A stretch of 64,000 nucleotides of DNA from Limnomonas spitsbergensis. Lineage: Eukaryota; Chlorophyta; Chlorophyceae; Chlamydomonadales. Each line of letters starts with the position of its first letter. Within the stretch, counting starts at the first letter, position 1. The DNA lies in the NCBI GenBank assembly GCA_037349105.1, contig JAYJMM010000063.1:248001-312000 (forward strand). Reading direction: 5' to 3'. Position numbers and translations under genes: made by a program. Of the stretch, positions 6,843-41,719 are shown one piece after another. The notes beneath the pieces are model-generated. The model saw only the letters and a list, made by a program, of their open reading frames with translations, did no database searches and was not told where the DNA came from.

Positions 6843-7272
6843 TGTTCACTGCGCGTTTGGATTTGTTTCGTTTAGCGACCATTAGATTGTGAATTACTGC
6901 GAAAGTTCAGCAATCAGGAAGCTCATGACTGGTCTGGACTGGAGGGTACGGAATTCAAACCGTCGGAGTCGAACAACTCAAGTTACGACACATACTGGAC
7001 TCAGTCAACGCAACAAGTGCGTGCCTGGGACTCGGGACAAGGGCTGGAAATCCGTCGGCTCCGCCGAGCTTGTCAGACGAATAGTAAATACTGTCGAGTT
7101 GCTCTGGGGTTGGCCCTGATCCGGACACTGGACTGGGGTCGGTACTGGAATTCGAATAGTTTTAACCCTGACAGGTCTAAGGGACGCGACTGCCCAGCGC
7201 GCGTGTCTCAAAACTCTTTCGAGCCGACGGCAGGGTTCTGTCAATGAAACTGCGACAGGATCGAACCGATAA

Positions 7273-7285
7273 GGCTCTGAAACCA
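7273..7285 (-). promoter_or_regulatory. Primer-binding site, unit 1 (initiator tRNA-Met-like)
   Basis: On the plus strand GGCTCTGAAACCA lies one base from the 5' LTR and resembles the 3' end of plant initiator tRNA-Met (GGCTCTGATACCA) with one change. A second block, CAGGATCGAACC at 7256-7267, resembles the T-arm of the same tRNA, so primer contact may be bipartite. About 430 nt of untranslated leader lie between this site and gag. Confidence 0.8.
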
Positions 7286-7286
7286 C

Positions 7287-7689
7287 TGAAGAGGTCCTAG
7301 GTGCCCTAGGGGGCAGGACTCTTATATCTAGACAGGGACTCACTAGTAGAGGAACGTGAAGGGGAGTCCGGGACGGTGTTGAGGGTAGACGAGTAGTCGG
7401 AGAGTTGACTGAGGGGGGACTAGGTGCTCACGAGGGGAGACTGCTGGAGACTAGAGATTTGATAGTGGGACAGTCAGGTATTGAGCCTGATGGATTGATC
7501 TCGTCTGAGACTTCCCGATGCCTAGCAGAGCTCGCTTATATGGGAGGTGCAGGGTTTAACCCGTGAGGGTTCTGGTCTGGGCTTGCCAGGCGATCCTGCA
7601 ACTTCCGTATGGAGCGTAAGCGCCGATAACGTAAGGCAGGTCGCGTCAGCGACTGGTAATTCTGGGGTACTGGTTACATGACCATTACA
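7287..7689 (-). repeat. LTR 2 (5' LTR of unit 1 and 3' LTR of unit 2)
   Basis: This 403-bp LTR is shared by both units, with no target duplication around it. Confidence 0.93.
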
Positions 7690-7701
7690 TACCTCCCCCC
7701 T
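7690..7701 (-). promoter_or_regulatory. Polypurine tract of unit 2
   Basis: Same purine run as at 1988-1999, directly next to LTR 2. Confidence 0.8.
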
Positions 7702-8047
7702 AGGCTGCGTGCCGAGCGCGGTGGAAGGTAAATGTTAGTGAACTGGAACTCGGAATGTTGCAGTATTTAATCAATTAAATGCAAACATGAAATCTGGAGC
7801 AAGTTATCTTGGAACTGCTAGAGTACTTGATTGTCCGCTGGAAAAATTAACTCAAGTCTGGATCTAGGTTGAATTATAACGAGAAGTGAAATCTGAGCAG
7901 CTTGCCAGGCTGGGCAGTATCGGTTCTCAAAGGAATTCAAGACAAGGTTCAGAAAGAAAGAAAAAAAAAAATCTGACTGGTCTGGTTTAGAGTTAGGTCT
8001 CGATCTGGGACTAGGGGTATGGACCTTGAATACTAGACAAGTGCTGG

Positions 8048-11000
8048 TTACTCAAAAAGGTTTTGAGCGTCAAGGAGTAATTCAGGAGTCAGGTTCTTGA
8101 GTGGCTCCCATGAATTGTGAGTGTCATCGTAACCAAGCCATTTGATTAGGACCTGCTTGACTCGCTTTTTGCCGACTCGTCGAATGCGATGTGACAAGAG
8201 CGACTCGACCTGGTATAATGGTAAACCATCCACGACTTGAGGCTCGACAGGTACTGGGTTTGAACTGGTACTGGGCTTGAACTGTCGTAAGAGTGACACG
8301 TGGAAGACTGGGTGAACTCGAGTGTAATTCTCGGGTAGTTGCAACCTAGCAGCATTGCCACCAGAAGTTAAACTCAGGATTGTCACTGGGCCGATATACT
8401 TGGGATGAAGTTTCTTAACTCCGGTCTGGAACTTGAAGTTTCTTGTTGACAGGAGAACTTGGTCACCTGCTTGAAAAGTGTGAGGTGCTCGGAAGCGCGT
8501 GTCAGCGTACGACGACTGGCGATCCTGCGCAGCTCGTAATAGTTTCTGAACTTGAACTAGAGTGTCATCCAGGTCACTGAAGACTGAATCAAGAGCTGGA
8601 ATTTGCTTGTCTGGAATGTCGATTGACAAAGGGGTATACGGGTTGCGTCCACAGTTCAGGTAGAACGGGGTGTGCCTGGTCGTACTGGTCTTGGCATTGT
8701 TAATGGACATAGCAACAACTGGTAGGAGTTCTTCCCAAGTGACATGGTTTCCATCAATGAAATGCCTAAGCACTTCTTCGACGACTCGATTCATTCGCTC
8801 TGTTTGACCATCTGTTTGGGGGTGGAAAGCAGTTGAAAATCTGGGCTGTACACCAAGGCGGTGACACATGGTCTTCCAGAATGACGAAGTGAATCGAACA
8901 TCTCTGTCAGAAATGATGTTTCTAGGAAAACCGTGATGCTGGAATACATGTGAGATGAAAACTCGAGCAACATCTTCAGATGTGCTAGATTTCCTGACTG
9001 GGGCTAGACAAACAAACTTTGTAAGCTTGTCCACAATGACCATGATGCCATCATGACCACTGGCTGACTGGGGCAAGTCAAACACAAAGTCCATGGTGAC
9101 AGTGTGCCATCTGGAATCAGGGATTTCTAGTGGCTGGTTTAGACCAAAGGGCCTCTTGTTTGCAGACTTGTTCCTCTAGCATGAGGCACATGATGAGACG
9201 TACTTTTGTACATCTGCCTGGATTGAGGGCCACCAAAATTGGCGTTTGATGTGGTCCAGTGTTGTCTTCCAATTGAAATGTCCTGCAAGGGATGAATCAT
9301 GGTGATCTCGAATGACTTCTTGTCGAAGTGCTGCTGGGATAATGACTAGGCCTGCATGAGACCAGTAGCCATTGCTAAAGGACCATTCTCGAGTTTTACT
9401 GGAAAGTTTGAATTCTGGATCAATGCTAGACTCGTTCTTGATTCTTTGCATGAAATCTGGGCATGACTCGTTAACTGTGATTGCAAATAGCATTGCAGCA
9501 TGGGCAGGTCCTTGGTGTGGCAACCTGGAAAGGGAATCAGCTGGGTTGGTAGCACCTGGTCGGTACTTCACAGTGAACTCGAATCGAGATAGGAACTCGC
9601 TCCATCTTGCTTGCCTACGTGACAGGGTGGGCTGCTTGGAGAAAAATGTCAGGGGGTTGTGATCAGTCACAATGTTTAGGCCATTGCTGCCTTCTAGATA
9701 GCATCGCCACTCCTTGAGAGCTTTGATAATTCCAAGGAGTTCTTGTTCGCCAGTAGTGTAATTGCGCTCGGCAGGTGAGAACTTGGCAGAGAAGTACGCG
9801 ACAGGTCGACCTTGTTGCGTAAGCACTGCACCACATCCAGTGATGGAGGCATCTGAAACGAGTTCGTACGATTGGTTTGGATCTGGGTATGCAAGAACTG
9901 GAGGCGAAGCTAACGCTTCCTTGATAGCTTGAAAAGCCAACAGAGCGTCAGCTCCTCCTGAGAACTGGACGGTTTTCTTGGTCAAATGGTACAAGGGTGT
10001 TGCCAGCCTGGAGAGGTTCGGAATGAATTTGCGAAAGTAATTTGCTAGGCCTAGAAATTGCAAGACACCTGTTGCACTGGTCGGGAATTCCCACTCGGTA
10101 AGCGCTCGAATTTTGTCTGGGTCAGCAGCCACACCTTCTTTCGAAAGAATGTGCCCTAGGTACTTGACTTGAGCCTGCAGAAATTTGCACTTGGAAAATT
10201 TGACCTGCAGTCCTGATTCTCGTATTTTGTCAAACACTTGTCTTAAATGCTGGAGGTGCTGTTCTGGTGTCTGGGACAGGATCATGATGTCATCAATGTA
10301 AATGAGGACGAATGCTAGATCAGCAAAGATTTTATTGACAGTGCTCTGGTATTGACTGGGCGCGTTCGAAAGACCCATTGGCAGGCAACGCCATGCATAA
10401 TGGCCGAAGGGTGTAGCAAAAGCTGTCTTGGGCTGGTCTTCCTCGGAAATAAGCAGTTGGTGAAAGCCACCTGCCATGTCTAGACAAGAGAAACATGAAG
10501 CTCCGCGAGCTGCATCTAGAAGATCATCGATCCTTGGTAGTGGGTAGCGTAGTTTGACAGTTAGTTCGTTCAAGGCTCGGTAATCAAGGCAGAACCTAAG
10601 TCCTCCATTTGGTTTCTTGATGAACAAGACTGGGGCTCCATAAGGACTGTTGACAGGGGTGATGATTCCTTTGTCAAGTAGCTCGGCAACCTGTTTCTTG
10701 AGTTCTTCAGACTCGGCTGGAGAGAGACGAAAGTTCCTGCGAAAAGGTGGTTTAGCGCCAGCGACCAGATCGATCGTGTGCTCTAGAGGTGGGACTTTCG
10801 CTCCGCCAGCTCGAGGGGTTTCTGAAAAAATGTCATCGTACTCGTCGATCAGTGAAGTAATCGCTGTACGCTGGTCTGGGTGCACATGGTTCATGTTTGC
10901 TAGTTTTTCTCGACTGGTTTTATGGTCTAGTTCTCCTTCTGGATTTGGTACTGGTTGTAACTCCTCGTCTGGTTCGCTAGCCTGTGGTGTCAATACAGCT

Positions 11001-12124
11001 AAGAATGCTCGGTGGCGACCAGACTTGAGTAATTTGGCTGCAAGGCCAGCTGGGATTTGATCGGTCTTCGTACGTGTACGGCATGGTCGGGATTCGTCTT
11101 CAGCGTCACACTGTCCAGCGTTATTGTCATGGGTCGGATCGGCTGGGCTAGAAGTGGTCTTCACAGCATGAGCAACCTGTACTGCACCTGTGCCACGTAA
11201 AACACACGAATTCAAGACCTCATGAACGACCCCGTCAGTGATGGTCATGAGACTAGACTGGTCTGGGCTGTACTGCAAATTACAAGAGTGTGTTTTCATG
11301 AAGTCTTCGCCAATGATTAAATCAATGGTATCGAGAAACGCTGGGAGGATGTGAACTGTAGCTTCAAAGTCAGTCCGGCCGAACGTAACAGTGAGACTCG
11401 CAGAACCTAGGACAGTACAGTCTCGACCAGCCGCAGTGGCCACTGCTCGATATTTACTTGAACGAATCTGGAGTCCGAGTTTCTTGGCAAGTTTGGCTCC
11501 CATGAAACATGTGGATGCCCCCGAATCAAATAGACACTTGAGGTTTTTGCCATGTGCTTGGCCGTGGTAGGTTGCTGCTAGGGGCTGGTCATCACCATCT
11601 TGGTGATTTCCATCTTGTTTTACATCCTTGTCTTGGCTGGTATGCAATATCTGGACTCGATCATCAACTTGTATCTTGGCTAGAACTCGACACTGGGCTG
11701 TTTCTCTTGTATCAGCTGGGATTACAAAGGCAAGTACTGGGGATGGTTTCATACCCTTATTCATAGCGGTACCAAGCGCTGAACTGGATTCGTATTTCTT
11801 GACTAGGAAAGAGTGTTGGAGTAGCGGTTGTAATCCTGCTGCTTGTCTGGAGGAAACTAGAAGACATGAACTGGTGTTGGGTCTGTTGTTCAAATAAAGC
11901 CTGGCTTGGCTTCTGGTTTTTGCAACGTAAATCTGGTGTTTGTCTGGAGAGTTGGAGTGAATGACTGGAAGCGTGCAGGTACAATTCAAATGTTCGTTAC
12001 AAATCACTCGGTCGTACGTCAGGAAGCTAGAGTTCATCAAGTCAGACACGTGATTCTCAACTGCAGTGCACACATGACATCTAGAGACAGGAGGGGGACC
12101 CGGGAATACCTCCTGCAAAAATTC
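8048..12124 (-). pseudogene. pol: Pol polyprotein, unit 2, broken by one amber codon in integrase
   Basis: The sequence matches unit 1 except for one change in the coding region. Plus-strand G at 3476 is A at 9178, turning a Gln codon (CAG) into TAG inside the integrase zinc finger, right after the last Cys of SSCASC. Residues up to about 982 (protease, reverse transcriptase, RNase H) stay open. The rest (integrase core and chromodomain, 8048-9175) is open but cut off. The product would have no working integrase, although the enzymes of unit 1 could act in trans. Confidence 0.93.
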
Positions 12125-12544
12125 CTACTGGGAAGGAGGCTTGTTTTCCTTCTTTTCAGGGCAGTTCTTGGCTTGGTGGCAACCTGCCCGGCAGTACCAG
12201 CACAGGTTGTACTCGTTCAATGACTGCTTGGCAGCGATGCTCAGTGCACCCACGTACTTGTAGTACGGGCAGGACTCGAACGGGGTCTTGAAGTTCTTGA
12301 CCTCCTTGCCGGAGCTGGTCTGGGCGCTGGGCTCGTTCTTCCTCTTCGGAACGGACTCGGTGTGTGCCAGCCGAGCGCGTCGCGGCTGCTGGAAATCTAG
12401 TGTTTTTGCAGGGTACTCTGGTTTGTGCACTGGTCTGGTATCTGGGCGGTAGCTGGGCTTGGTCACTGGTCGGTAATGGGGCTTGGAATCTGGACGGTAA
12501 CTGGAACTGGGTACTGGTACGACACACGTGCGTGCGCTAGTCAT
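12125..12544 (-). CDS. gag: Gag-like protein with CCHC zinc knuckle, unit 2
   Basis: Identical by eye to the gag of unit 1: 139 residues, CWYCRAGCHQAKNC knuckle, and the same TAG (12125-12127) separating it from the pol frame in the same phase. Because the two units are almost identical, the shared TAG is not independent evidence that readthrough is functional. Confidence 0.85.
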   Translation of the reverse strand: MTSARTCVVPVPSSSYRPDSKPHYRPVTKPSYRPDTRPVHKPEYPAKTLDFQQPRRARLAHTESVPKRKNEPSAQTSSGKEVKNFKTPFESCPYYKYVGALSIAAKQSLNEYNLCWYCRAGCHQAKNCPEKKENKPPSQ

Positions 12545-12974
12545 TGTTCACTGCGCGTTTGGATTTGTTTCGTTTAGCGACCATTAGATTGTGAATTACT
12601 GCGAAAGTTCAGCAATCAGGAAGCTCATGACTGGTCTGGACTGGAGGGTACGGAATTCAAACCGTCGGAGTCGAACAACTCAAGTTACGACACATACTGG
12701 ACTCAGTCAACGCAACAAGTGCGTGCCTGGGACTCGGGACAAGGGCTGGAAATCCGTCGGCTCCGCCGAGCTTGTCAGACGAATAGTAAATACTGTCGAG
12801 TTGCTCTGGGGTTGGCCCTGATCCGGACACTGGACTGGGGTCGGTACTGGAATTCGAATAGTTTTAACCCTGACAGGTCTAAGGGACGCGACTGCCCAGC
12901 GCGCGTGTCTCAAAACTCTTTCGAGCCGACGGCAGGGTTCTGTCAATGAAACTGCGACAGGATCGAACCGATAA

Positions 12975-12987
12975 GGCTCTGAAACCA
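12975..12987 (-). promoter_or_regulatory. Primer-binding site, unit 2
   Basis: Exact copy of the site at 7273-7285, one base from LTR 3, with the same T-arm-like block about 17 bases further in. Confidence 0.8.
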
Positions 12988-12988
12988 C

Positions 12989-13391
12989 TGAAGAGGTCCT
13001 AGGTGCCCTAGGGGGCAGGACTCTTATATCTAGACAGGGACTCACTAGTAGAGGAACGTGAAGGGGAGTCCGGGACGGTGTTGAGGGTAGACGAGTAGTC
13101 GGAGAGTTGACTGAGGGGGGACTAGGTGCTCACGAGGGGAGACTGCTGGAGACTAGAGATTTGATAGTGGGACAGTCAGGTATTGAGCCTGATGGATTGA
13201 TCTCGTCTGAGACTTCCCGATGCCTAGCAGAGCTCGCTTATATGGGAGGTGCAGGGTTTAACCCGTGAGGGTTCTGGTCTGGGCTTGCCAGGCGATCCTG
13301 CAACTTCCGTATGGAGCGTAAGCGCCGATAACGTAAGGCAGGTCGCGTCAGCGACTGGTAATTCTGGGGTACTGGTTACATGACCATTACA
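12989..13391 (-). repeat. LTR 3 (5' LTR of unit 2)
   Basis: Third 403-bp LTR, with the same TG...CA ends, followed at once by the right copy of the CTTGC target duplication. Confidence 0.93.
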
Positions 13392-22401: not shown

Positions 22402-22910
22402 GTGAGTGTCTTCACCCTTAACCCTAAACCATTCGCCCAGTTCCACTCGAGAGTGTCTGAACCCTAAACCATTCGCCCAGCTCCACTCGAGAGTGTCTGA
22501 ACCCTAAACCATTCGCCCAGCTCCACTCGAGAGTTTCTGAACCCTAAACCATACGCCCAGCTCCACTCGAGAGTGTCTGAACCCTAAACCCATTCGCCCA
22601 GCTCCACTCGAGAGTGTCTGAACCCTAAACCATTCGCCCAGCTTCACTCGAGAGTGTCTGAACCCTTAACCCATTCGCCCAGCTCCACTCGAGAGTGTCT
22701 GAACCCTAAACCCATTCGCCCAGCTCCACTCGAGAGTGTCTGAACCCTAAACCCATTCGCCCAGCTCCACTCGGGAGTGTCTGAACCCTAAACCCATTCG
22801 CCCAGCTCCACTCGAGAGTGTCTGAACCCTAAACCCATTCGCCCAGCTTGACTCGTGTAAGTTTCTAAACCCTGGACCCACATACCCAGCTTGACTCGTG
22901 AGTGTCTAAG
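22402..22910 (+). repeat. ~41-bp minisatellite derived from exon 6 edge and donor of the CDPK relic
   Basis: About 12 units of the form CATTCGCCCAGCTCCACTCG, then AGAGTGTCTGAACCCTAAAC. The exon itself ends GCATTCGCCCTGCTGGACTC|GTGAGTGTCTTCA followed by CCCTTAACCCTAAACC, so the unit is the exon's last ~20 nt, the donor and the first intronic bases. Each unit carries the telomere-like CCCTAAAC. The last unit (CTTGACTCGTGAGTGTCTAAG region, 22890-22910) keeps the original donor GTGAGTGTC. Confidence 0.9.
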
Positions 22911-26037: not shown

Positions 26038-26271
26038 CTGTCGCACCATAAAGCAGTAACTGCAATACTATGGTAAATACCGTAAACTCCGGTCAGGACA
26101 CCTTAGAGAGGTGTCCTCTACTCACAAATACGGTACATCACCGTACACTCATGCTCCTTGTACTACATACAAGAGCTTGTTAACAAGATGACTGTAACTG
26201 GAAGTCCCTAACTGGATGTCTCTGCCTAGAAGTCTCCGTCTCGTGGGTACCGCCCCTACTACTTTACTCGC
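26038..26271. repeat. 234-bp direct repeat, left
   Basis: Identical to 26897-27130 by eye, offset 859 bp. It contains an internal hairpin, GGACACCTTAGAGAGGTGTCC. Confidence 0.9.
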
Positions 26272-26896
26272 GATGTGCGCTTCAGGTCCGTGGCGGACTT
26301 CTTTCCTCACGGCAGTGATGGACGCCTACGGGCAGGCTCAGTGACTCTTCACTGGCTGCGAGTGCTCAGCGAGTTAAGCAGCTAAACTGGTTATTTGTAT
26401 GTATAGCAATTGACTTAGGTAGCGTAGGCCTTCTGGCCGTCTGGGCGCGATCCAGCTGGGCTATTTTAAGGGCACTTACCGCGCAACACGCGGTGAGGTA
26501 GACGGGACGTAGACTGCGTACTTCTTCTTCGGCAGGGTCTCGGTTCTCTACTGGGGTACTTGTCTCCAGCTAGATCAGCTGAGGCTGAGCTAGACTTGAC
26601 TCGGGTTAAGGTACTGACTTAAGTGAAAGCTGCAGGTCTCGAAGACGGCCGGTGCTTGTTACAAATAGAGGTCTGTCCTTTAGAAAGGGACGAAGTAACT
26701 AGTTTAGGCAATTGCCGGGATACAGGGACCCGGCAGGCCCAATTCAGAGTACGGATCATGCTCAATCACCCTGCGTAAGCGGGTTTCTAGGTCTCAGTTC
26801 AAATCCGGAGACTCCGCAGAGAAGCTGCGGAGGCCCCGAGGCCGCTAACTGCGGTCTAAACGGTTCTGTCACGTATACTGTAATATACTGTGACAG

Positions 26897-27130
26897 CTGT
26901 CGCACCATAAAGCAGTAACTGCAATACTATGGTAAATACCGTAAACTCCGGTCAGGACACCTTAGAGAGGTGTCCTCTACTCACAAATACGGTACATCAC
27001 CGTACACTCATGCTCCTTGTACTACATACAAGAGCTTGTTAACAAGATGACTGTAACTGGAAGTCCCTAACTGGATGTCTCTGCCTAGAAGTCTCCGTCT
27101 CGTGGGTACCGCCCCTACTACTTTACTCGC
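26897..27130. repeat. 234-bp direct repeat, right
   Basis: Identical to 26038-26271 by eye. Confidence 0.9.
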
Positions 27131-27793: not shown

Positions 27794-30535
27794 TCAGGTC
27801 TCGGTAAGCTCCTCAAGGGCTGACTCCTCTTCTTCCTTTGCTGCTTCCTTGGCCACCTTAGCCCTTCTTGTAACTGCTCTCGGGGTGACATTGGCCTCTC
27901 CCCGGCCAGTGGTGTACGAGATGTCGTACAACCCGTTCGCCATTGGTCTTGCGATGCCCCGCTCCATTTGCCTTGTTGCTGGGTTGGTGGCCATGACTTC
28001 CACCTCAGGCCTGTCCATGACGTTGGCCTCCTGGGCTGTCCTGGCAGCCGCTCTGGCTGCTGGGCTCGGCCGCCCCTGGACCTGCAAACTGCGATCCTCT
28101 GTAGCGGGCCCTGCTCTTGCAGCGGGCCCAGCCCCCTTGTCCGCAGGTGTGCATTGTGGGCACACCCACTCGCCCTCAGGCACCTTCTCGAGTACTGGCA
28201 CCAAGCAATCCATGTGCCAACCTGTATTGCATGCATCACACAAAAGCATCACCTCTCCGCGATTAGGCAGCTGGCACACCTCGCATGACAGGCTGTTATT
28301 GGGTCTGGTTCCACTGAAATCAACCACTCCCCTGAGGTTGGGCAAGTGGCATGGAGAACAATTTACAGCATTCTCTGTTACTGTGAGGCCATCTGCCCCC
28401 TCCAACACCAAGGTTCCCGTCGCCCCCAGTGTTTTTACCCTTAGGATCTCAGGCCTGGCCTTGGGATCGAGGCTGCGTCGCTCTGATGAATACTTCACAT
28501 ACACGTAATCTCCCTCTGCAAAACGCCTGACCTGGGGGACATACCCTCCCCCACGAATGCGTGCATATCGCAGCTTGTCGCGGTGCTGCGCAATTTTTAG
28601 ATGCTCACCCGCGACTGGCAGTGCCTCTTTGATCCTGGCCACTCTGGCCAAGAGCAGGTCTGCTGCCTCCTCTGCTGTTGCCACCTTGGCTGTGCTCCAG
28701 AGGTCCGCCCCTACTCTGGAGGGGAAGGTGGGTCTCTGCCCGAACAGCACCTCGTACGGCGCCATGCGCGTGGCCTGCTGCGGCGAGCATCGGAAGCCTA
28801 GGGCTACCCAGGGCACCATCTTGTCCCAGGACTCGTCGCTGCTGCCCTCCTCGCAGCACTTGCGCAGGCCTGTCTTGAGGGTCTGGACAGCCCTCTCTGA
28901 TAGCCCGTCTGCCTGGGGGTGGTTGGCAGAAGTGGTGCGGTGGTCAATGAAGCAGTCCAACAACATGTCCTGAAATTCACCCTGGAACTCTGTTCCCTGG
29001 TCTGTCACCACTTCTGCGCATCCCCCGAATCGTGCAACAACATTTTGAAAGAACGCTAAGGCCGTCACATCAGACGCCTTGCTTGGAATGGGGATCAACT
29101 CCACCCATTTGGAGTAATGCTCCACACACACCATCACAAACCGATTGCCTCTGGAAGTGGTTGTGAATGGACCACACAGGTCCACTCCCCACCGGAAAAA
29201 CAACCCCTCGATGGGTAGCGGGTGCAGGTTGGGCTGTATGTGGTTGAATGTGGACGCCCTGGCCCTGTCACACACACCACATTCCTGCACTGCCTTCTTG
29301 ACTGCTGCTCTGAGCCCCCGCCACCAATGCTGCTGCATGACCATGAAAGCCGTGCGGTGGCTGACAAAATGGCCCGTACCGGCATGGGCTGTCTGGATCA
29401 CTGCAAGCCTGACCTCTGGCCTGGGCACCACACAACGTCTACCGTCAGGCATGAGTCTCATCAGTACTCCTCCCCTCTCTGATTCCCACTGGAATGGCGC
29501 CGCTCTGCGCTGTATTCTGGTCTGTTCTCCTAGCTCTGTTCCCTGAACATATGTCTTCTCACGGAGAAACCTCAATACAGGTTCATCTGCCCACACATCA
29601 ACCCTGACCGATGGTCCTGCAGGGCATCCTGGCGGGTCCTTCTCACCCTCTGTGTCCCTGGTCACCATGATTTCAACATCAACTTGTTCCTCAGGTGTGT
29701 TCCCACCTGGTTCCTTTGCCGCGTCGGCCCAGTCTGCCGCAGCCGATTCTCCCAGGCACTGCCTGTATGACGCGGCCACTTCTCCGCTGCCAGAGCATGC
29801 GTTTCCTGCAGTAGCAAGGGCATAGTGGCTGGACATTAAAGTTGCACCCAGCACTGGGTCCCTGTCCGGGCCTGGCAGCCTTGCCCTGCGTTTCAATTCC
29901 TCTGGTATGATTTTAGCACACTCAAGTGCCACATTGAGCCATGCACCTAGTGCCCACGAATCCATGCACCTGCCCAAGGCTGCCCTCCTGGCCGCCTCTG
30001 GGAAGTCTGGGCGCGGCAATGTGGACCCCACAGCGTACCCCATGGCTCGCTCACGCTCATTTGCATTGGGCTCCTGCAAGTCCCCCATGGGTCTGTACAC
30101 CATCCCATTTTGCCCGTTCCGAAAAGAGTATGATGAGGGCGTGGCCATCAGACACGGCAGCACCTTCCTGGGCTGTCCTGTTACGTTGATGCGGTACCCC
30201 CCATTGTCCGGACATGAGACTACCTGGGCCTTGCTGCCCTTGTCCAGAATGTCGTCTACTATCCCCCCGTGGGGTCTGGTCGACGCACGAATCACAAACT
30301 CAATATCTGCTGCAGGGGCGATATTCCCCCAATAGTTGCGGGTGCGATGGGCGTAAGACCCCACCTGCGCTGCGTCAAACAATGCCAGTGTTCCCAGAAT
30401 CCTGCACACCTCCTGAAAAGCCTCAACACTGGCCTTCACACTCTTCTGATTCAATTGCATTGCCACATTCTCAATCAGGTACGCTGGCGGCCTAGGCCCC
30501 TGCAGGAACTGTAGTGTACCCAACAGCTTGACTAA
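27794..30535 (-). pseudogene. Giant element segment 3: second half of C5-methyltransferase, integrase, PHD finger
   Basis: It continues the frame after TAG 30536-30538. The first ~200 residues complete the methyltransferase: AYLIENV (motif VI, ENV), GSYAHRTRNYW (motif VIII-like RxR), a target-recognition stretch with LMATPSSYSFRNGQNG, then NANERERAMGY and RRAALGRCMD (motifs IX-X). Next is the integrase: an H-H-C-C finger (HAGTGHFVSHR...QECGVCDRA), Asp in WGVDLCGPF, Asp in VVTDQGTEF, Glu in GLSERAVQTLK. Last is a PHD finger, CEVCQLPNRGEVMLLCDAC, then NTGWHMDCL and WVCPQC (C4HC3), followed by a basic tail with TPRAVTRRAKVAKEAAK. PHD fingers bind histone H3 tails, so it may guide integration as chromodomains do. 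This segment has no internal stop. Confidence 0.88.
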
Positions 30536-30538
30536 CTA

Positions 30539-31684
30539 CGGGAAGAAAGACTTGCTTCTCTCTCCCTCGAGCCCACGCCCCTTGCCTGCCGACGAGAGGT
30601 CCTGGCACTCCCAGCCTGCTACCATGAACCACTGGTGCCCATCCTGGGCGCCCGCCTCCTGGAGGTGCTCCGCCGTAATGGCATACACATCTTGGGGCAA
30701 CGCTCTGAAAGCTTTATCAAACGCCTTGACCGGAAGCAACTGAGGGTATCTCCTGTGCAACTGCACCAGGCGACCCCCTGCGATCTCTCTGACTTCCTCA
30801 CTGATATCAGCATACAAGTACTGCACCACTGGGATACCCGCCCTGAGTACCATTTCCAGCCCTGAGCACATACCTCCAAAGGGCTCGAAAAGGACGACTC
30901 CTTCGGTCTCCATGGCCCGCACAGCCCCACTCGACAGGCAAGCTGTGTCCAGGCCTGCATGTAAATGAGGGGGCGTCACCCGAGGCAGGTCAGCAAGAAC
31001 ATCACTGATCATTGTCCTGGCCCTTTCCCTGTTGCTGAACGCCTGTTCTGCCGTACTGACGGGCTGCGCCTGCTCATCATCGTCAGTGGCGGCAGAGGAT
31101 ATCTCCTGCCCCACCGGCGCTGTCACGCAAGCTGCCTCTGCAGCTCGCAGTATCTGCACTCTTCTTCTGCCCTCCTGCGCCATGCGCACTATCTGGTCTG
31201 CATGCCACTGGTTCACTCTGCCCAACCCCGTGAGTAAAGCTACTTGCTTCCCACCTGCCTCCTCCTGGACTGCTGGCTCGGGAGCTGCTGTATCAAGCCT
31301 GGCCCCCGTGCGGTCAGCTGAGGATGGGAGTGGCGATCTGGACGGGATGTCCGCATTCTGGTGGCATGCCCCTGAGCGGTGGACAATGGTAATGTCCAGC
31401 TCTTGAAGCATGAGAGCCCACCTAGCATGCTGGCCCACCAACGTCTGATTGTCCATGAGGTAAGTGAGCGGCTCATGGTCAGTGATGAGATGCACCTTGC
31501 ACCCAAACAGCATGTGGCGGTATGTGCGTGCTGCATACACTGCGGCCAGCATCTCCCCCTGGAACGAGGAATACTTCCTCTCGCTCTTGTTCAGGGATCT
31601 GGACGTGCATGCCACCATATACTCCCGCCCGCTGTCATCACACTGCCCTAGCACGGCGCCTATGCCTTGCTTAGAGAAATCTGT
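30539..31684 (-). pseudogene. Giant element segment 2: RNase H and first half of C5-methyltransferase
   Basis: It follows the TAA at 31685-31687 in the same frame. The RNase H starts TDFSKQGIGAVLGQ, where a Tyr is usual just before and the TAA now sits, and includes EMLAAVYA and ITDHEPLTYLMDNQ. After a linker comes VVLFEPFGGMCSGLEM, the motif I SAM-binding loop, then YLYADISEEVR (motif II-like acidic residue), then VAGWECQDLSSAGKGRGL. The last matches motif IV, with Glu-Cys-Gln replacing the usual Pro-Cys-Gln but keeping the catalytic Cys. The methyltransferase is cut by TAG at 30536-30538, just after GERSKSFFP, and resumes in frame (LVKLLGTLQF). It would methylate cytosine at C5 using S-adenosylmethionine. 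Whether this copy was ever active is unknown. Confidence 0.85.
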
Positions 31685-31687
31685 TTA

Positions 31688-34600
31688 CAACAAGAACAGC
31701 CTTGGCGGCCCCTTGCCGTCTGGCCCTGTCCCACTGTAATCTGGTCTGCGCAGGACTCTTCCGCCCTCGCACATCTCTGTTTTGATCAACTGGAACGCCT
31801 GCGACTGCTCTGGCCCCCACACAAACGGGACCCCCTTGACCAGCAATGCGTTGATGCATGCCGCCTTTTTCGAGAAATCCGGGACGTAGCACCGGTAGAA
31901 ATTCAAGAATCCCATGACCTCCTGAATGTTTTTCACCGATGTGGGCTCTGGCAGCGCCATAACCGCTGCTATCTTGGCTGCGTGCGGCGTGAGCCCCTGG
32001 GCCGACACATTGTGACCCAGGTACTCTACCGTTGCACACCCAAACAGGGACTTGTCGGGGTGCGCCCTTAATCCTACACTGTGGAGCATGTCCAACATCA
32101 GCTCCACATGCCTGATGTGTTCTGCCGGTGTGTCACTGTACACCAGTAGGTCGTCAATGAATGCCACGCAGAACGCACTCAGGCCTGCCCTGGCAATCTC
32201 CTCTTCCATCATACGCTGAAAGAAGGGAGGCCCATTGCGCAGACCGAAGTTGAGCTTTGTGTACATCCAAAGCTCAGGTCCCATCCAGAAAGCTGTCTTA
32301 GGCTGGTCCTCGACCTTCATAGGGATCTGCATGAACCCCGACCGGAGATCAACCTTGCTGAATATCTTGGCAGTTCCCAGGTTCTGAAAAATAGTCTCCA
32401 TCCTGGGGATTGCAAATTCCTGCTTAGCCGTACGCAGGTTTAACCTGCGCATATCGTGCGCTATCCGGTGGTCTGTCCACTCCCCAGTCTCAGCACTCTT
32501 CTTGGCTGCTACTACTGAGTTGGCCGCAAACTTGATAGGCCCCCCCTGGGGCACCTTGACTATGATGCCTGCCTCAATCATCGGCTGACACTTTTCCTTA
32601 AAAATCGCCGCCTTAGGCGGTGGCATATCCCTGGACTTCTGAAAGCATGAACTGACCTCGTCTTCCAATGCCAGTGTAAACTCACCCTGTGTACCACAGT
32701 AGCCGGGTAAGTCCTCCATGGAGTAAGCGAACGCTCCTTGGCGATCCCTGAGGCTCTGCTCGAGGGTCTTCTGCTGGTCCGCCGTGAAGTCGGGGTGCTG
32801 GCCCAGCAGCCACCCCTCCTTAGTCTTGACGTACTCCGAGGGTGGTTCGACTACTCCCCCCGGCTGGAACATGTCAATCATCTCCGCCGCCTGCGGGTTG
32901 TCCTCCGCGGGCGGCGCTTCCTCGCCTGTGCTGTTGCCGTGCTGCCAGTCTTCCCGCTGGCTGTACTCGCCCCCTGTCCTTCTGGCGCCCCCCATAGGGC
33001 TGACTGCTGGTGGGCGCAGCCAGCCTGACGTGAGCTTTGCTGTGGCTTCCTGGCTGGACACAAAAGCTCCTTGGCCTGCTGTAAATCCTCCTCCTCTCAC
33101 TCCCTGCCCGGTGGCTCGCGCACCCGGGATGCATACAGACAGCAGGAGCCATACCAGCACCAGCTGGAGCGTCCCCATAAGGAACCCCTTAAAAGCCGTA
33201 CTAGTGAGGAGCCCCCTGCAGCATGGCAGCCGTCTTGTAGGCTCCTGCGGCTGGTGCGCTGCAGATTGTTTGCGTGGCCCTGCACTCTGCTCTGGCCTCT
33301 GCTGCTCCGCTTCCCATGTTATCTCCAAGTCCACCTGGCAGCTCCTGGAAGGTTGGCCTGGGCAGTCCATGCCTGGCCTGATGCCGCGGTCCCTTTCCGC
33401 GGCTGTCCTCTGCTTCGCTCCTGCGCGTCGCCTGGCCTTCTTGGACTTCTTGCCTTGTAACTTGGCTGTGTCAGCCCAAGCTGCACCGGGCCTCTCTTGC
33501 CTTGCTGCTGGGGCGTGTCCCCTGCTGTCCTGCGCCTGTTGCTCCTGCCCGAGGGTGGTGTGCTGCGCAGCTCTACTGACTCCTGCGCGCGTGGCCCTTG
33601 CTGGTCCTCCGCACTGCCTCATGCCTCTCCTGTCATCGGCCATCTGCCTTGCTTGGCCTGCCTGCCCGCTGCTGGTGTGGCTGTTTTCTGCAGTAGCCGC
33701 TCCGCCAGCCCTATCCACTGGCCGCGACTGCTGCACACCTGGGGCCTGGCTGCTGTGACTGCCTGCGGTTTGCTGTGCAGCACCTGCGCTGGCCCTTGTT
33801 GCCCCAAGGACTGATATCCTTTCCGTCGTCTCCTCCTGTAGATCTCTGATTGCCCTGCTGTAACCTGCCATCCTGGGGTTAGGGTCGGGCTGTGGCAGCA
33901 TTCTGAGGCGGAAAAGCAGGCTAGCCTCCTGGTCTGCCTCTTGCTGCCCCATGTCCTGTCTTCTCAGTACGTCCAGCTGATCTACGAAATTCCTGAGTAC
34001 TGCCATCCAGCACCCCGTACTGTATGATGCCGGGTCACCCCAGGGCTCCCTTGCCGCTCCCTGCACCGGCTGGCTGATCTGGGCGTCCCCTGGGCGCCTG
34101 CTGCCAGCCCCGCTGGCTGCTGCCTCCTTTGGATTGCGCGCGCACTGGTCTGCTGACTGCCGCGGGCTGCCCCTGACCGCGGCCCGGTACGTCCTCTCGC
34201 CCCGTGTTATCTCGTTACTGCGCTCTATCGCGGCTCTCCTGGCTCTGCGCTCCTCCATTGCTGCTTGCTCCTGAACGACGCTGCGCATCCACTCGTGACG
34301 CAGCTGTGTCAGGTCGTCCTCGAGGTCGTGCCCCGGACTCCCTGGTCCTGGGACTCTGTTGGATGGCAGATTATCTCCTTCTGCATCCTGAGCCTCTGCT
34401 CTGGCGGCGTTATCCTGGTCCGGGGGTATGGCTCCTCCCTCGTACCACTCCTCTTCTGACCCCGTAATCTCCACCAGTGGTGGCGGCTCCTCCGAAAGGT
34501 CGTCGCTGTAACCAGGGTTCCTGCTGTCCAGGTCCTCTGCAAGCAGGGCACCGGTACTGTATCGGGGTGACTGGGGCTCTGCCCGTCCCCTAGGCTCAGA

Positions 34601-37600
34601 TTCCGGTGCAGACCCTCCCATTCCTTCCGCGGGCTCCAGCCATTCCCATGAGGATGCGGCTGCCCCGAATGTGGTGACGAATGCTGCCTGGGTCCATTCT
34701 GGCTCTTCTTCCTGGGCAGGACCGTTGGTGGCGGCCGCAGGTTCCTCCGAGACGGGACCGCGCCTGCCCACCAGCCAGTGTCCTATCCTTGGCTGGTTCC
34801 CCAGGGCCTCCAATTCCTCCTCAATGCCGACCTCCCCTGCTCCTCTGAACAGGGGGTGCAGCGTGCGCACCCCTGCCGGATGCGCCTGTCTCCACAACTG
34901 CATTGTTATGACGTCTGCCTGCCAATAGGGTAGCACGCTGCTTGCCCTGTTGTCGTGCCACGCTCTCCTCTCCTGACGCACCCACTGGAGCACGCATGCT
35001 TCCAGTTGTTCTACTGCGAACGGCGAGCGCGCAAGCTCCTCCTCTCCTTCCCACATGGCTCCCGATGCTGGCGTCCTTTGTGGCCCGTAAGGCCAGGTGG
35101 GACAGGCTGTTATGGCAATAGGAGCCCACTGCCCCTCTACACCCCACACGTGCCGCATGGCCGCTGACAGCTGTCCTGGGAGCAAGACTCGCTGCAGCGC
35201 CAGAAGCATGAGCGTCCACACTGTTGGGTCTGCGCCCCTGGCGTATGTGTAGGCGTGGAACTCTGCCTCATCCACCGACGCGCATTTAGTGATTGCCACG
35301 TTGTCCTGGTGCCTTGCGAACATGTAGACGGGCTTGTCGTCCTGAGTGGCGTGCATGTGGATCCATGCTGCTGAAACAGGTACCTCCCCATCTTCCACCT
35401 CCTCATAGTAGTAAGTTACTAGCTGCTGGACCGGGATGGCCGACCTGGCCTCCCCGGGTGCCGTCCCCCATGGCACGGCCTGTCCTGCGACCATCCTGGG
35501 CATGACGATGGACGCCTCAATGGTCGCCTCACACCGCCTTGGCCTGCCCGGATGGCACAGCCCTGCCTCGGCTGGGGCTTGCACTGCTGTCCCCTCAAAC
35601 CCTGCGTACTCGCCCATGGCTTGCACTGGCACATAGAATGCGCGGTCTCTGAGAGCTATGCTCCCCATCAGCTGACGCACGCAGTCCTGCGCCCATGGTG
35701 AGCGCATGAACCCGGGCTGCGCACCCTGCCACAGCCCCTCTGTGCACGCGCTGTTGGGCACGTCCGGGTGCGCCCTGGCTGCCGCCTCCACCGCTGTGAT
35801 GCCCTCCGCGACTGCCAGAGTCACCATTTCATGTACGCAGCATACATAGATGGGGTGCCGTTCCCACCTGCGCGCCATGTAACTGGGCATGTTTGTGCTG
35901 GGCCGTATGTACCCTTTGAGTGCTGCCAACAGTAACACCGCAGTCACAGCATCCCCCGGGAAGATCATCCGGGCCACCGCCTGACTGGCTGCCCGCCTGT
36001 TCACGCACATCTGCACGCCGCCTTCCTGGAGCCTGTGGTTTTGCACCCTACACAGCCCGTCCAAGCAATCTGCTGGCATGGTGAGCATGGCCATGGAGGT
36101 GGACGCCTCTGGCATCTCTTCCCCCAGGCGGTAATACTGCACAAAGGGTTCGCTCTCTGGTGGAGTTGGCGGATACGGCTCTATGTAGGCCCGCTCTCTG
36201 CTGTATGATCTCTCTCTGCTGAAGGACTGGTCAAGCTGGCTGTCCTCGCCCCCTGCGTCAGACCTCCCTCCCCTCTCACTGCTGCGCTGCGTCTCTCCAT
36301 CCTCGTTTACTCCTACCCAAGCATTGCACCGAGAGGTAGTGCCTTTATGGGTCCTAACGGGCCCTGCTGGGCTGTCCTGCTGGCTCAATGCCGCGGCCCC
36401 CCTGGCCCCTGGGCGGCGACCACGCTCGCTGGCTGGGGCCCTCCCGGTGGCTGCTCCTGCTACCCCTCTTCCTGTGTCGCGCTTGCCCTCCGGGGTACCT
36501 GGACATAACACGGCAAACTCTGCCTCACGCAATGGTGATGGTTCCCGAGGTTCATATTCAGGTTCATAACCTCCTTCTGAAAGGTTGGAGCCGTCCCAAC
36601 TGGAACTGGTCTCCCACCCGTCTACGCTGTGCTGGGGCAATGCCCCCTGCTCGCGTCTCTCAAACTCATCCCACTGTTCATTGTACTTGTCCCACTCCAC
36701 GTCGAGGAACCTCTGCAAAATACACGGCCAACCTTCACACGGGGCTGGGCACCCCCTCCGCTGGAGGTCCCTCAATAATCCCATCGCATGTGTCACTGAT
36801 CTGGCCGACCCTGCTGGCATGGTCCCATAATGGTTCATGGCCAATGCCTCTACTGCCATTGCCCAGTGGTTTACCTGCCTGGCCACCTGCCCTTCTGGCA
36901 CCCTCTGTGGAGTCACCTGAACTGGTGCTGTTTGGTTGACCTCAGCCTGGCTGGCACCCCTGTCCTGGCTAAACCCCATGTGGCTGGTCATGAAACACGT
37001 GTGGTTTCCTGTCCCACCCCACCTTGGTTGTTCGCCTTGGCCCGTTGTTTCCTGCCGCTCCGGTGGTCCTGGCCATGCGCTTGAGCCCGCTGCTGCCTGC
37101 TGGCGGTCCCCTTCGCGGGGTGTCCCCATAGCAGTCTCGAAGTTCCGGCGCCGGTTCCCCTCGGGGGCATCCTGGCTTCTGCCAGGCCCTCTGGCCCCAT
37201 AGCCCCGTGCTGGTCCTGCAGGTACTCCTGGCCTGTCGCCTGTTTGTACGACTTGCTCGGGGTTGGTGCATTCGTTGGCAAAGTGCCCTGGCTGGCCGCA
37301 CCTGTAGCAGGCTCCACCGTGGCGGGGTCCTAGATTGCGTTTTGGCTCCGCCATCCCACTGCCTCCTGCCTGGGCCCTGCCCGGCGGACTCAGGCCTGGG
37401 CCTCTCTGGTGCCCCGGCCCCTGCCTGTAAGGCCTTGCAAACTCCTCTGGTCGCCGCTCCCTGGACCTGCCCCTGGGCTGTTCCCTGCTGGGTGACTGGT
37501 GCCTGCGGTCCCTTTCGGGAGACTGCCGCCTGCGGTCCCAGCCCCGCTCCTCGCTGGTGTTGCGCTGCTTTTTGCCCTGCCGCTGGGCCCTGGCTTCCGG

Positions 37601-38851
37601 TGTGGGCACCACCCCGTGGCGCTCCTCACTGATGGCCCTTTGCGCGCTTCTGCTGCGCTGTCGGAGTCTTCTGTTCCCTGAGTCGCTGGAGCCGTTGCTC
37701 CTAGCTTCCTGCTGACCCGCTGCCTGTTGCTTTTCTCCCTGCGGCTCCCCCTGGTCGGAATGCTCGCTCTCCACGTTTGATAACGGGGACGGGGTCGCCA
37801 TCATTTTCCTGAAGCATTCTGCCGTCTCTGGGTCCACTGCAACTGGGAGCGGCTGCCCGTGGTTTGGCAACCCCCCCAAGTGCTGTGTTCCTAGGGCTTC
37901 TTGCAGCTTGGTCAGCTCATCTGCACGCAGGATGTACTGCTGATGGACCTCTGCCATGGCTTGCTGAGCATCCTGGATGCTCTTCCACCTGCCCAGCTGG
38001 CCTCCTAGGTACTCGACGATTCCTGCTGCCTGCTTCCACATCTGGTTTTCTCTCCACTTGAGAGCTTTTTTCAGCCCGTCAACTTGCCCGGTCAGCCTGC
38101 CGATGTGCCTGTCTTGACTGCTGGTCCCTGGCTCTGGAACCTTTCCGACGCTGCGCTCCTCCTCCTCCTCTTCCATCTCTTCTTCCTGCGCCTCGCCAGC
38201 GCTGCCGCTTGCTTGTTGCGCAGTAGGCCTTGCTACCTTTGGCTGCCCTTGCAGCTGCTGCTTTTGCGCCTGCCTGCCAGCGCCGCCGCTTGCCTGTTGC
38301 GCACTAGGCCCTGCCACCTGTGGTTGCCCTTGCAGCTGCTGCTTTTGCGCCTGCCTGCCAGCGCCGCCGCTTGCCTGTTGCGCACTAGGCCCTGCCACCT
38401 GTGGCTGCCCTTGCGGCTGCTGCTTTTGCGCCTGCTCGCCCCTGCTGGGCACTGATTTTACTTGTGCAGCTCTGTCAGCTGCGGCTGTGCCGTATCCCCT
38501 CTGCTTTGCGACCGGCGGTGCTGCCTGCACCGCAGGCGCTGTCCCTGGGATCCGCGAAAGATCCTGAATCCTCCTCTCGCACTCCTCTGCCGAGTGCCTG
38601 GCTGGCTTCCCGCACAAGGCGCACGGGTGGCTGGGGCATGCTGGCAAGCAGCTCCTGACGAGCTCTCTATCCTTGTCAGAGACTCCCACGGCTCTGCGCG
38701 CTCTGGTCACCTCCTCTGGGGTTGCTGTGCCGGCCTCTGCCTGTGCTGCCTCGATCGGTACCAGCCTTTGTCTTTGGAGCCTGGGGTGTACCGTGTTGCC
38801 CGGTCATGCGTCCTGTCCAGCTCTCAAAGCGGTACCTGCGCGTGTGGCCAT
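31688..38851 (-). pseudogene. Giant element segment 1: Gag-like region, hydrophobic segment, reverse transcriptase
   Basis: The frame runs from ATG 38851 (MATRAGTALRAGQDA), is cut by TGA at 38804-38806, then is open for about 2,370 codons. Counting from 38710: a Cys/His motif CALCGKPARHSAEEC near 30; three ~27-residue repeats (QAQKQQLQGQPQVAGPSAQQ...) near 90-175; CCHC knuckle CYRCGQPGHFANEC near 466; Arg/Glu/Pro-rich low complexity; a well-structured unknown region near 900-1250 (CVNRRAASQAVARMIFPGDA); a hydrophobic stretch FLMGTLQLVLVWLLLSVC near 1835-1855; and reverse transcriptase from ~2000 with HDMRRLNLRTA, FSKVDLRSGFMQIPM, AFIDDLLVYS (catalytic Asp pair) and VEYLGHNVS. No protease motif was found. 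It is unusually long for a Gag-RT segment. Confidence 0.82.
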
Positions 38852-39959
38852 GGCATGCTGTAAGAGCGGCTCGTGCTCTGCCTCAACTGTTGCAGCGGGC
38901 CACCCTTCTCTTTCTGCGAACCCACACTGGATTCCTGCCCACGCCACTGCTGCTGCCTGGTACCCATGATGGCTGTCTTTCTTCTGTTCTTCACGCCACC
39001 TTGGATCTTCAAGGGCTCCTTCTTGCCTTTGCTACCCTGTGAGTGGACATTGTGAATACCTTTACATTCGGGGCGATGAGGTTGGCGTTCATGTTCGTGC
39101 TCATGAACATGGACCATGCCTTGCAATCGCATGACCATAGTGTGTTTTGACAGATCTTCCCAATCTGTCCATGCAACACTAGTGTGGGAGTCGACCTTGT
39201 CTCTTTCTTGAGCCCTCGCCTATACATCAAGACCCGATCAGGTGGTGATGGGGCTGGTGGGCCCGCCCTAGTAGGAGTCCTGGTTGTAACTTGCCAGGGC
39301 AGTACAAACATCAAGTCATCAACTCACCCGCAAAAGCAGGTCAGACACCTTCAAGTTAGGTTAAAGTCATGTGTGACTGGCGAGTCAGCGAGGGCCTGGC
39401 ATGAAAGACGTGGTTAGGCATACTCATAGACACACTTAGGAAGAAACCACTGGCAGCACTGGTGGTACTAAAAGTACTGGCAGGAGCTACTGGTGGTGCT
39501 AGTAGTACACGTAGTAATAAAAGTACGAGCCGGAGCTGCATGTGGTAGTGTGGTACCAACAGTAAACACAGTATTGGCCGGGGTCGGTTAGTCGTAGTAC
39601 TGGGAGGACTCACCTTGACAGGAGACATGCTCCTGGGCCAGGATCTTTCTCTTGCATTTGGTGGCCCCACGCTGTGACAAAGGAAGGTGCAAAAAGTGCC
39701 GGAGTTAGGATTTAACATCGCAAGTAAGGTAAGCAAGGGGGCAGTCGGGGGAGGGCTAGAGGGGAACTGCAAAGCAAGCCAAAATAATGGACCTTAGATT
39801 CAGCATTTACATATCTTGAGGCAGATCTATGATGCGCAATACTCCCTAAACCCTGCATCCTTTATCCACTTCCAACAACAGCACCACCATGCCCGCGTGC
39901 CCCATGTTTTGAGCCCAGTGCTAGGGGGTGTCCCCAGCCCTGTTACTGGCATTGACCTT
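38852..39959. other. Upstream flank of the giant retroelement
   Basis: The frame extends upstream of the ATG to a TAG near 39019 without a clear family motif, so the N-terminus may lie further up. No LTR recognised. The rest holds short ORFs only. Confidence 0.4.
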
Positions 39960-40840
39960 GGCCCCCAGGCCCAGCAGCAGGTCAGAACCCTCCTGGCATT
40001 GGCCACCAGGCCCCCAGGCCCAGCAGCAGCTCAGAACCCTCCTGGCATTGGCCACCAGGCCCCCAGGCCCAGCAGCAGCTCAGAACCCTCCTGGCATTGG
40101 CCACCAGGCCCCCAGGCCCAGCAGCAGCTCAGAACCCTCCTGGCATTGGCCACCAGGCCCCCAGACCCAGCAGCAGCTCAGAACCCTCCTGACATTGGCC
40201 CCCAAGCTCCCAGGCCCAGCAGCAGCTCAGAACCCTAAAACCTAAACCCTACGCCCCCAGGCCCCCAGACCCAGCAGCAGCTCAGAACGCTCCTGGCATT
40301 GGCCACCAGGCCCCCAGGCCTAGCAGCAGCTCAGAACCCTCCTGGCATTGGCCCCCAGGCCTCCAGGCCCAGCAGCAGCTCAGAACCCTCCTGGCATTGG
40401 CCCCCAAGCCTCCAGACCCAGCAGCAGCTCAGAACCCTCCTGACATTGGCCCCCAAGCTCCCAGGCCCAGCAGCAGCTCAGAACCCTAAAACCTAAACCC
40501 TACGCCCCCAGGCCCCCAATCCCAGCAGCAGCTCAGAACGCTCCTGGCATTGGCCACCAGGCCCCCAGGCCTAGCAGCAGCTCAGAACCCTCCTGGCATT
40601 GGCCCCCAGGCCTCCAGGCCCAGCAGCAGCTCAGAACCCTCCTGGCATTGGCCCCCAAGCTCCCAGGCCCAGCAGCAGCTCAGAACCCTCCTGGCATTGG
40701 CCCCCAGGCCTCCAGGCCCAGCAGCAGCTCAGAACCCTCCTGACATTGGCCCCCAAGCTCCCAGGCCCAGCAGCAGCTCAGAACCCTCCTGGCATTGGCC
40801 CCCAAGCCTCCAGGCCCAGAAGCAGCTTAGAACCCTCCAA
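39960..40840 (+). repeat. ~49-bp minisatellite with telomere-like interruptions
   Basis: About 17 units built on CCCAGCAGCAGCTCAGAACC, then CTCCTGGCATTGGCCMCCAGGC. The unit often runs in register as an open frame, but third-position and frame variation give no sign of a conserved protein. Two units carry CCCTAAAACCTAAACCCTAC in place of part of the unit (40234-40254 and 40486-40503). Confidence 0.9.
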
Positions 40841-40919
40841 CCAGCCCTCATAAGCCACATTGTGCACTGCGGGCAGGTGTGGCAGTTTTTTTGATTACAT
40901 AGATGAAAGCAGTATGGTG

Positions 40920-41719
40920 CAGGGCAGTTACAGCCGATCGGCGCCCGACCAGAATGGCCAGAAAATAAATATGGCCGATCGCCCCGCTAGGGGCGACTCG
41001 GCGATGGCCGAAAGAAAAAGAAGGGGGGGGTCGGCCGAAGGCAGGCTGCAGCCGAAGGCTGCGGAAGGGGGGTTCGGCCGAAGGCCGAATCTGAGGTGGG
41101 GGTTCGGTCGAAAGCAGGCCATATTAGGCCTCTTTGAATTCGCGTGTGGCTGCCATTGGTGAAGACTCAATAGCAATCGAACTATCGAAGGCTGTCCCCA
41201 CGACCAGGCCCACGCTTTCCATTTCAAAATCGGCGGTGAAGCGACCACAACAACAGGTGTGCGACTCGCGCAACCATGCCGAAGGAATTTCGGGAGCTTT
41301 CTTGACGGAAATGTTGCTTGGTTCAATGCCTTCTTGTGATAAAACTTTGCAGTTCAACGGCCATGTGTCGACGAAGGCATGACAGAATTTGTGCGTGTTC
41401 CAACACATTCAAAATTCAGCACACACAAAACAGCTCACGGCGTATTTGAATGTTAGCGGAGAACGTCAAGATATAGAGCAAACGACATGATGCACGTAGG
41501 TTTACACCGCCGAAAACAGTGTGGGCCTGGTCGTGGGGACAGCCAGTATAAGTGTCCACCAGGCCAAAGAAAAAACAGATCGATTCGGCAGAATACAAAA
41601 AAATATTACGGCCGACCAAATTTGGACGGCAGTTCGGCCGGCCAGCCGGCCGGCCGACCGAACTGCCGAAGGCCGTTCGGCTTCGGCCGAGTAGAATTTT
41701 AAGGTCCGTAACTGCCCTG
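40920..41719. mobile_element. Non-autonomous hAT-type DNA transposon B
   Basis: Exactly 800 bp. It starts CAGGGCAGTTACAGCC and ends GTCCGTAACTGCCCTG, flanked by the perfect 8-bp duplication GTATGGTG (40912-40919 and 41720-41727). Subterminal regions are full of the palindromic motif TTCGGCCGAA and relatives. An internal perfect 24-nt inverted repeat pairs 41191-41214 with 41521-41544. No transposase ORF. These features indicate a hAT non-autonomous element unrelated in sequence to element A except for the CAGGG end. Confidence 0.9.

Follow-up and report, generated by a model that had tools for sequence, protein, structure and literature searches.

A DNMT3-type methyltransferase domain and a PHD finger in the polyprotein of a split-repeat, Gypsy-type retroelement family of Limnomonas spitsbergensis

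Introduction

Does a retroelement of the green alga Limnomonas spitsbergensis encode a cytosine methyltransferase and a PHD finger in one polyprotein, and what would such an element do with them? The question was raised by an earlier note on a minus-strand frame in the 64,000-nucleotide stretch of DNA that was analysed here (the window). It is thought that a captured DNA methyltransferase (DNMT) allows a retroelement to mark its own DNA, and few described cases were found. For example, De Mendoza et al. (2018; PMC5890265) described DNMT capture in Symbiodinium elements and in KnitGypsy-Dnmt3 of Klebsormidium nitens. According to the available text of two further articles, DNMT3 occurs in retrotransposons of streptophytes and dinoflagellates (PMC12344493, 2025), and Ty3/Gypsy and DIRS elements that encode DAM or DCM have green algae among their hosts (PMC6338049, an opinion article of 2019).

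Results

The window copy and its family

The window copy lies on the minus strand at 38965-26039, as do all its parts given below, and is a 5'-truncated member of a large family with hundreds of copies. Its gag-pol frame (27794-38803) holds a gag-type CCHC zinc knuckle (37262-37312; PF00098, 29.9 bits, cut-off 20.8), followed by reverse transcriptase (RT; 32006-32470; PF00078, 80 bits, cut-off 29.6), RNase H (31400-31684; PF17917, 96.5 bits, cut-off 24.8), a DNMT3-type C5 cytosine methyltransferase domain (29810-30937), the H2C2 zinc domain (29255-29419; PF17921, 38.5 bits, cut-off 25.5) and core (28916-29191; PF00665, 39.5 bits, cut-off 32.6) of a DDE integrase and, C-terminal to the integrase, a C4HC3 PHD finger (28151-28285; PF00628, 40.3 bits, cut-off 24). 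The earlier note had placed RT, RNase H, methyltransferase, integrase and PHD finger in one frame. The order was right, but the frame of the window copy is broken by in-frame stops at 31685-31687 and 30536-30538, the second inside the methyltransferase domain. The note's RT, integrase and PHD assignments held in the profile searches, with all three above cut-off on the window frame. A weak DSA motif (E 0.33) was the sole protease candidate. Homology to the polyprotein of a full-length copy on contig C4 could be followed by tblastn as far as 38965 (38450-38965, 43% over 210 aa), where it stopped; the remaining 5' part and the left-hand repeat A1 were absent from the window copy in this comparison. 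The similarity of the two copies at the DNA level was 74-81% upstream of RT and about 93% downstream.

The genome (260 Mb, 124 contigs) was searched with the RNase H-DNMT segment, and the best 108 of 1318 candidates were scored. These 108 matches were 96-100% identical; 15 of them lay in open frames of more than 5,000 aa, and nine had a stop within the segment. The C4 copy measured 18,983 bp and holds the domains in one unbroken frame of about 5,300 codons, running from an ATG 719 bp past A1 to a stop 698 bp ahead of B1, and is thus a further genome copy with the domains in the same frame. Judged from sequence, the enzymes of this large retroelement are of the Ty3/Gypsy type and the family has been active recently; the window copy is a truncated member of it.

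Split direct repeats and element ends

Piecewise comparison of full-length copies revealed split direct repeats in the order A1-body-B1-A2-B2 instead of paired LTRs. Repeat A (about 636 bp) forms the left end and appears again near the right end, where repeat B (about 233 bp) flanks it on both sides. In the window, B1 was located at 26898-27130 by direct-repeat and copy comparison, with a purine-rich run ahead of it, as in the family. It is followed by a GC dinucleotide at 26896-26897 and by A2 at 26269-26895, which starts with TGTCACAG and is 88% identical to repeat A of the C4 copy; the B1|A2 junction reads GCGACA-GC-TGTCAC, the internal junction of the other copies. B2 (26039-26271) is 100% identical to 26897-27130, matches B2 of the full-length copies and ends the element with GGTGCGACA. 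The left end of full-length copies is TGTCACAG and the right end GGTGCGACA, giving TGTC...GACA termini. Inspection by eye showed a 4-bp target duplication in 6/6 copies with both ends read (TGGT, TGTC, CCCT, AGCA, CAAA and CCTA). Within copies, A1 and A2 were 99.5-100% identical and B1 and B2 99.6-100%, and the insertions are therefore recent.

With up to two mismatches, the genome held 668 B|A, 381 A|B and 574 A|body junctions, and reversed-pattern controls gave 0 for each of the three. Spacings were taken from exact matches on contigs C3-C35. There, at least 43 of 77 exact A|body junctions had a B|A junction no more than 25 kb away on the same strand; at least 29 of the spacings were 15-18 kb, at least 18 of these being 17-18 kb. 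The ordinary LTR order, B-A-body, was seen at one of the 77 junctions among the matches listed. The split direct repeats were not mentioned in the earlier note.

The methyltransferase domain

PF00145 stayed below cut-off on the split pieces of the window copy and passed on the C4 copy (24.8 bits, cut-off 22), whose DNMT segment is unbroken and 97% identical to that of the window as protein. The earlier note was therefore right about the methyltransferase, which it had read from a damaged copy. In a comparison with solved structures the domain was nearest to DNMT3 among C5 methyltransferases, and a DNMT3 fold was predicted at high confidence for the C4 methyltransferase. The conserved blocks, which we take to be motifs I, IV, VI, VIII and IX/X, follow in order. 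A 24-row alignment showed no variation at the catalytic Cys, at Glu-Asn in motif VI or at either Arg of motif VIII, and dN/dS of the DNMT was 0.11, calculated from copies covering at least 90% of the segment, with numbers of copies that differ by domain.

The usual motif IV of DNMTs is Pro-Cys. Among matches to a loose motif-IV pattern, the catalytic Cys was preceded by Glu in 70/81, by Pro in eight and by another residue in three; the C4 copy has Glu-Cys, and a second family of the same genome, L197, has Met-Cys-Thr. These substitutions would be expected if the DNMT were catalytically altered or dead and had been retained for structure or for binding nucleic acids. We consider this quite improbable, as the invariant residues, the low dN/dS and the confidently predicted DNMT3 fold argue against it. 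By its closest structures and motif order, and with a motif IV that departs from Pro-Cys, the predicted domain is a DNMT3-type C5 methyltransferase.

The PHD finger and the spread of the fusion

All eight C4HC3 ligands are present in the PHD finger of the element, and PF00628 was over cut-off in the window copy, the C4 copy and the L197 family. The complete C4HC3 pattern occurred in 141/204 collected proteins, many of which are partial. With the C4 copy as query against solved structures, the nearest PHD sequences were those of CHD4, ATXR5, KDM5-type demethylases, WSTF and BAZ2A, several of which read the unmodified H3 tail. Constraint was weaker on the finger than on any other named domain (dN/dS 0.28, 60 codons). 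A Pfam scan of the window and C4 pieces found no chromodomain at the integrase C-terminus, and precomputed Pfam lists placed PF00385 beside the PHD finger in 2/76 relatives (P0185 and P0188).

In protein searches the best 8000, 8000 and 7999 candidates were scored. Among 75 further public DNMT-bearing proteins, the order RT-RNase H-DNMT-integrase-PHD was found in 43, DNMT-integrase-PHD in 12 and DNMT-RT-RNase H-integrase-PHD in two; the other 18 were shorter or were without some part. The joining of a DNMT to a C4HC3 PHD finger in one retroelement polyprotein, as the earlier note had claimed, is thus found in many different elements. The same genome holds the fusion again in L197, where a single open frame has matches over cut-off to DNMT, H2C2, integrase core (rve) and PHD. 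A search for L197, in which the best 123 of 664 candidates were scored, found frames of 2,253 aa in seven places among the matches listed, and the L197 DNMT is 42% identical to that of the first family. This second family was not mentioned in the earlier note.

The interruption of the window copy and the failure of PF00145 on its pieces could have pointed to an artefact of assembly or chance, such as a row of unrelated genes or a retroelement that happens to lie beside a cellular DNMT gene. We judge this refuted by the closely similar genome matches and their long frames, by L197 and by the 43 public proteins with the same order.

The integrase-PHD region gave 120 listed matches, of which 93 had both domains, including proteins of Volvox africanus, Haematococcus lacustris, Tetrabaena socialis and Chromochloris zofingiensis and one liverwort record, Calypogeia fissa. 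DNMT-integrase-PHD was found in nine of the 120 and DNMT-integrase in six, one of the latter being P0111 of Volvox reticuliferus. In Chromochloris, the gene models P0002 (DNMT) and P0049 (integrase-PHD) are numbered consecutively, and we infer from this that they are neighbours. No named match was from K. nitens among the scored candidates, most of which are without a name. Furthermore, P0025, P0042, P0046 and P0085 have the integrase-PHD fusion with no DNMT in the interval from RNase H to integrase, and the PHD finger may therefore be the older feature of the integrase. Fusions free of DNMT were not mentioned in the earlier note.

Median DNMT identity between members of the lineage was about 44%. 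Distances in RT, DNMT, integrase and PHD were correlated over 43 complete rows (42 public proteins, two of them DNMT-first, and the C4 copy), with Mantel r 0.33-0.69 and 0/999 permutations as high. An integrase tree was built from 81/131 rows, with 50 rows of unknown DNMT status left out and the DNMT label of the window row set by hand. The DNMT label needs four changes on this tree, and one side of a weak fork (65/66; the root is arbitrary) holds 66/73 DNMT-bearing and 1/8 DNMT-less rows. Our own reading, which goes further than the tree, is that the integrase-PHD fusion came first, followed by an early insertion of the DNMT in one large lineage and by a few later moves or losses of it.

Test for a self-methylation footprint

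CpG observed/expected was 0.56-0.60 in the element vs 0.54-0.69 in the rest of the window, and relative to CHH sites, CpG sites showed a 2.4x rate of C-to-T changes and a 2.2x rate of transversions. CpG depletion was no stronger in the element and the transversion excess was about as large as the transition excess, and thus these tests of element and window gave no element-specific CpG loss and no self-methylation footprint. This result counts for a DNMT that acts mainly on targets other than the new insertion, shielding cDNA or an RNA/DNA hybrid from host defence or altering host chromatin in trans, with the PHD finger alone responsible for targeting; the DNMT-free integrase-PHD proteins, which indicate that the modules are separable, point the same way. 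However, DNMT distances track RT and integrase distances within the lineage, and the position of the DNMT within pol, where it separates RNase H from integrase, fits action on cDNA. We regard such other targets as rather unlikely.

Discussion

A full-text literature search, with subscription papers and preprints largely outside it, found no report, among the papers listed, of DNMT and PHD combined in a retroelement, in agreement with the novelty that the earlier note had supposed. The nearest described element found was KnitGypsy-Dnmt3, which by its published description matches the algal element in its Gypsy-type pol, in-frame DNMT3 and DIRS-like repeats (PMC5890265). It differs in its charophyte host, and a PHD finger appears nowhere in the main text of that article. 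Its DNMT was under purifying selection and a yeast assay of the methyltransferase was inconclusive; both tested copies of SymbioDIRS-Dnmt3 methylated CG in yeast (PMC5890265). SymbioDIRS-Dnmt3 and SymbioLINE-Dnmt of Symbiodinium are likewise retroelements with a captured C5 methyltransferase, but they have a tyrosine recombinase or a LINE endonuclease, not a DDE integrase, and a PHD finger is unmentioned in the text available (PMC5890265).

Judged by domain order, the algal element resembles Ty3/Gypsy LTR retrotransposons in its RT-RNase H-integrase order with H2C2 and DDE core, and it has the same TG...CA ends and short target duplication. It differs in the DNMT inserted between RNase H and integrase and in having split repeats, where Ty3/Gypsy elements have an identical LTR at each end. 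Chromoviruses, which belong to Ty3/Gypsy, likewise have a domain of histone-reading type at the C-terminal end of the integrase, a chromodomain where the algal element has the PHD finger. One chromovirus lies in the same window at 2349-6422, with a chromodomain, LTR-like 300-bp repeats and no DNMT. Split direct repeats in the order A1-body-B1-A2-B2 are shared with DIRS-order elements of the PAT/Ngaro/VIPER type, for which we know of no target duplication. CR1-like LINEs with a PHD finger were reportedly described by Kapitonov and Jurka in 2003; they share a retroelement PHD and are, unlike the algal element, non-LTR elements. PAT/Ngaro/VIPER-type elements have a tyrosine recombinase (PMC6681497), whereas the algal element has a DDE integrase and 4-bp duplications. 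Pfam scans found no tyrosine recombinase (PF00589) in the window pieces (E<=0.1) or the C4 pieces (E<=1), and rve was present instead. A Gypsy-type integrase with a C-terminal PHD finger is also known from Ginger1, as in Ginger1-9_HM, but Ginger1 elements are DNA transposons with terminal inverted repeats, and a DNMT is unmentioned in the text available (PMC2836005). Apparently, the green algae harbour a widespread and undescribed lineage of DNMT-PHD retroelements.

The best explanation, which we consider fairly probable, is a split-repeat Gypsy-type element whose PHD finger tethers the integrase and whose DNMT methylates the element's own DNA. The Glu ahead of the catalytic Cys, the missing CpG footprint, the yeast result on KnitGypsy-Dnmt3, the weakness of the protease candidate and the comparatively low constraint on the finger weigh against it. 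The transcript would start inside A1 and end inside B2, and the internal B1-GC-A2 junction would supply the missing terminal letters and restore the outer ends. The DDE integrase would then trim the junction and insert the DNA with a 4-bp stagger. By likeness to the supposed role of the chromodomain in chromoviruses, the PHD finger, which holds the chromodomain's position, would bind nucleosomes whose H3 tail is unmodified and so tether the integrase to them, and the DNMT would methylate the element's own cytosines, either inside the particle or when the DNA is inserted. We infer that the finger most likely guides integration and that element DNA is the substrate of the DNMT; both roles had been proposed in the earlier note.

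It is possible, and in our opinion doubtful, that the lineage rebuilt the reader-plus-writer logic of cellular DNMT3, in which an H3-tail reader is joined to a de novo DNMT. The PHD finger would then lead the integrase to nucleosomes that lack H3K4 methylation, and methylation of the incoming element by the DNMT would at once silence or hide it, so that the host tolerates it; replication would be DIRS-like, with DDE integration at a circle-type B|A junction.

In the lineage analysed here, the DNMT is retained and joined to an integrase-borne finger of histone-reading type. Because split direct repeats occur here together with a DDE integrase and 4-bp target duplications, the element falls across the line between LTR and DIRS-order elements and bears on how split-repeat elements replicate. 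The finding suggests that the element may mark its own DNA and choose its insertion site, and since DNMT and PHD are small, separable domains, the ideas of self-marking and target choice are testable.

Relatives with other domain arrangements

Among the public proteins related to the element, P0197 and P0202 carry the DNMT ahead of RT, whereas in the usual order it follows RNase H, and in the integrase tree (81 rows), the root of which is arbitrary, both group with elements that lack a DNMT. A chromodomain and a PHD finger occur together in P0185 and P0188 according to precomputed Pfam lists, and a DNMT is present in both proteins as well. Two further proteins of the same retroelement kind, P0014 and P0052, are assigned to Spirochaetia and Burkholderiaceae metagenome bins; these probably reflect algal contamination of the bins.

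Other methyltransferase frames in the genome

The L. spitsbergensis genome contains a second DNMT-IN-PHD retroelement family, represented by locus L197 (contig C3, 766000-769999, minus strand), in whose DNMT motif IV reads Met-Cys-Thr. Three other cytosine methyltransferase frames, L198-L200 (C30:293433, C93:390191 and C14:272908), lie outside the retroelement families and resemble the phage or giant-virus type (PCQDIS, PCTTFS). They are possibly endogenised viral genes, although this origin is a guess.

Other elements and tandem repeats in the window

The window also holds a chromovirus tandem (1584-13287) with RT, RNase H, integrase and chromodomain. Its 300-bp repeat occurs at 1584, 7286 and 12988 in three copies that are 100% identical, equally spaced at 5702 bp, and enclose two bodies, of which one has an unbroken frame and the second a split one. 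The tandem is either the product of a recent insertion in tandem or a duplication introduced by the assembly. At 22420-22907, a 41-bp unit including AACCCTAAACCC is repeated 12 times; it is telomere-like and contig-internal. A 49-bp tandem array (39862-40934), seen as 17 overlapping 277-nt copies at 49-bp steps, lies a short way outside the truncated 5' end of the retroelement.

Unusual repeat arrangements and size classes

Spacings from A|body to B|A, the junctions of the split direct repeats, were taken from the exact junction matches listed on contigs C3-C35 only of the window's own genome. Among these, 4 of 43 formed a shorter class of 7.7-7.9 kb, perhaps internally deleted derivatives. 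The junction matches listed also revealed B-A-B-A tandem arrays and one B-A-body case (C22:250898-252404, C28:3836379-3837896 and C9:3186864-3187494), and it is possible that these arose as circle or concatemer insertions.
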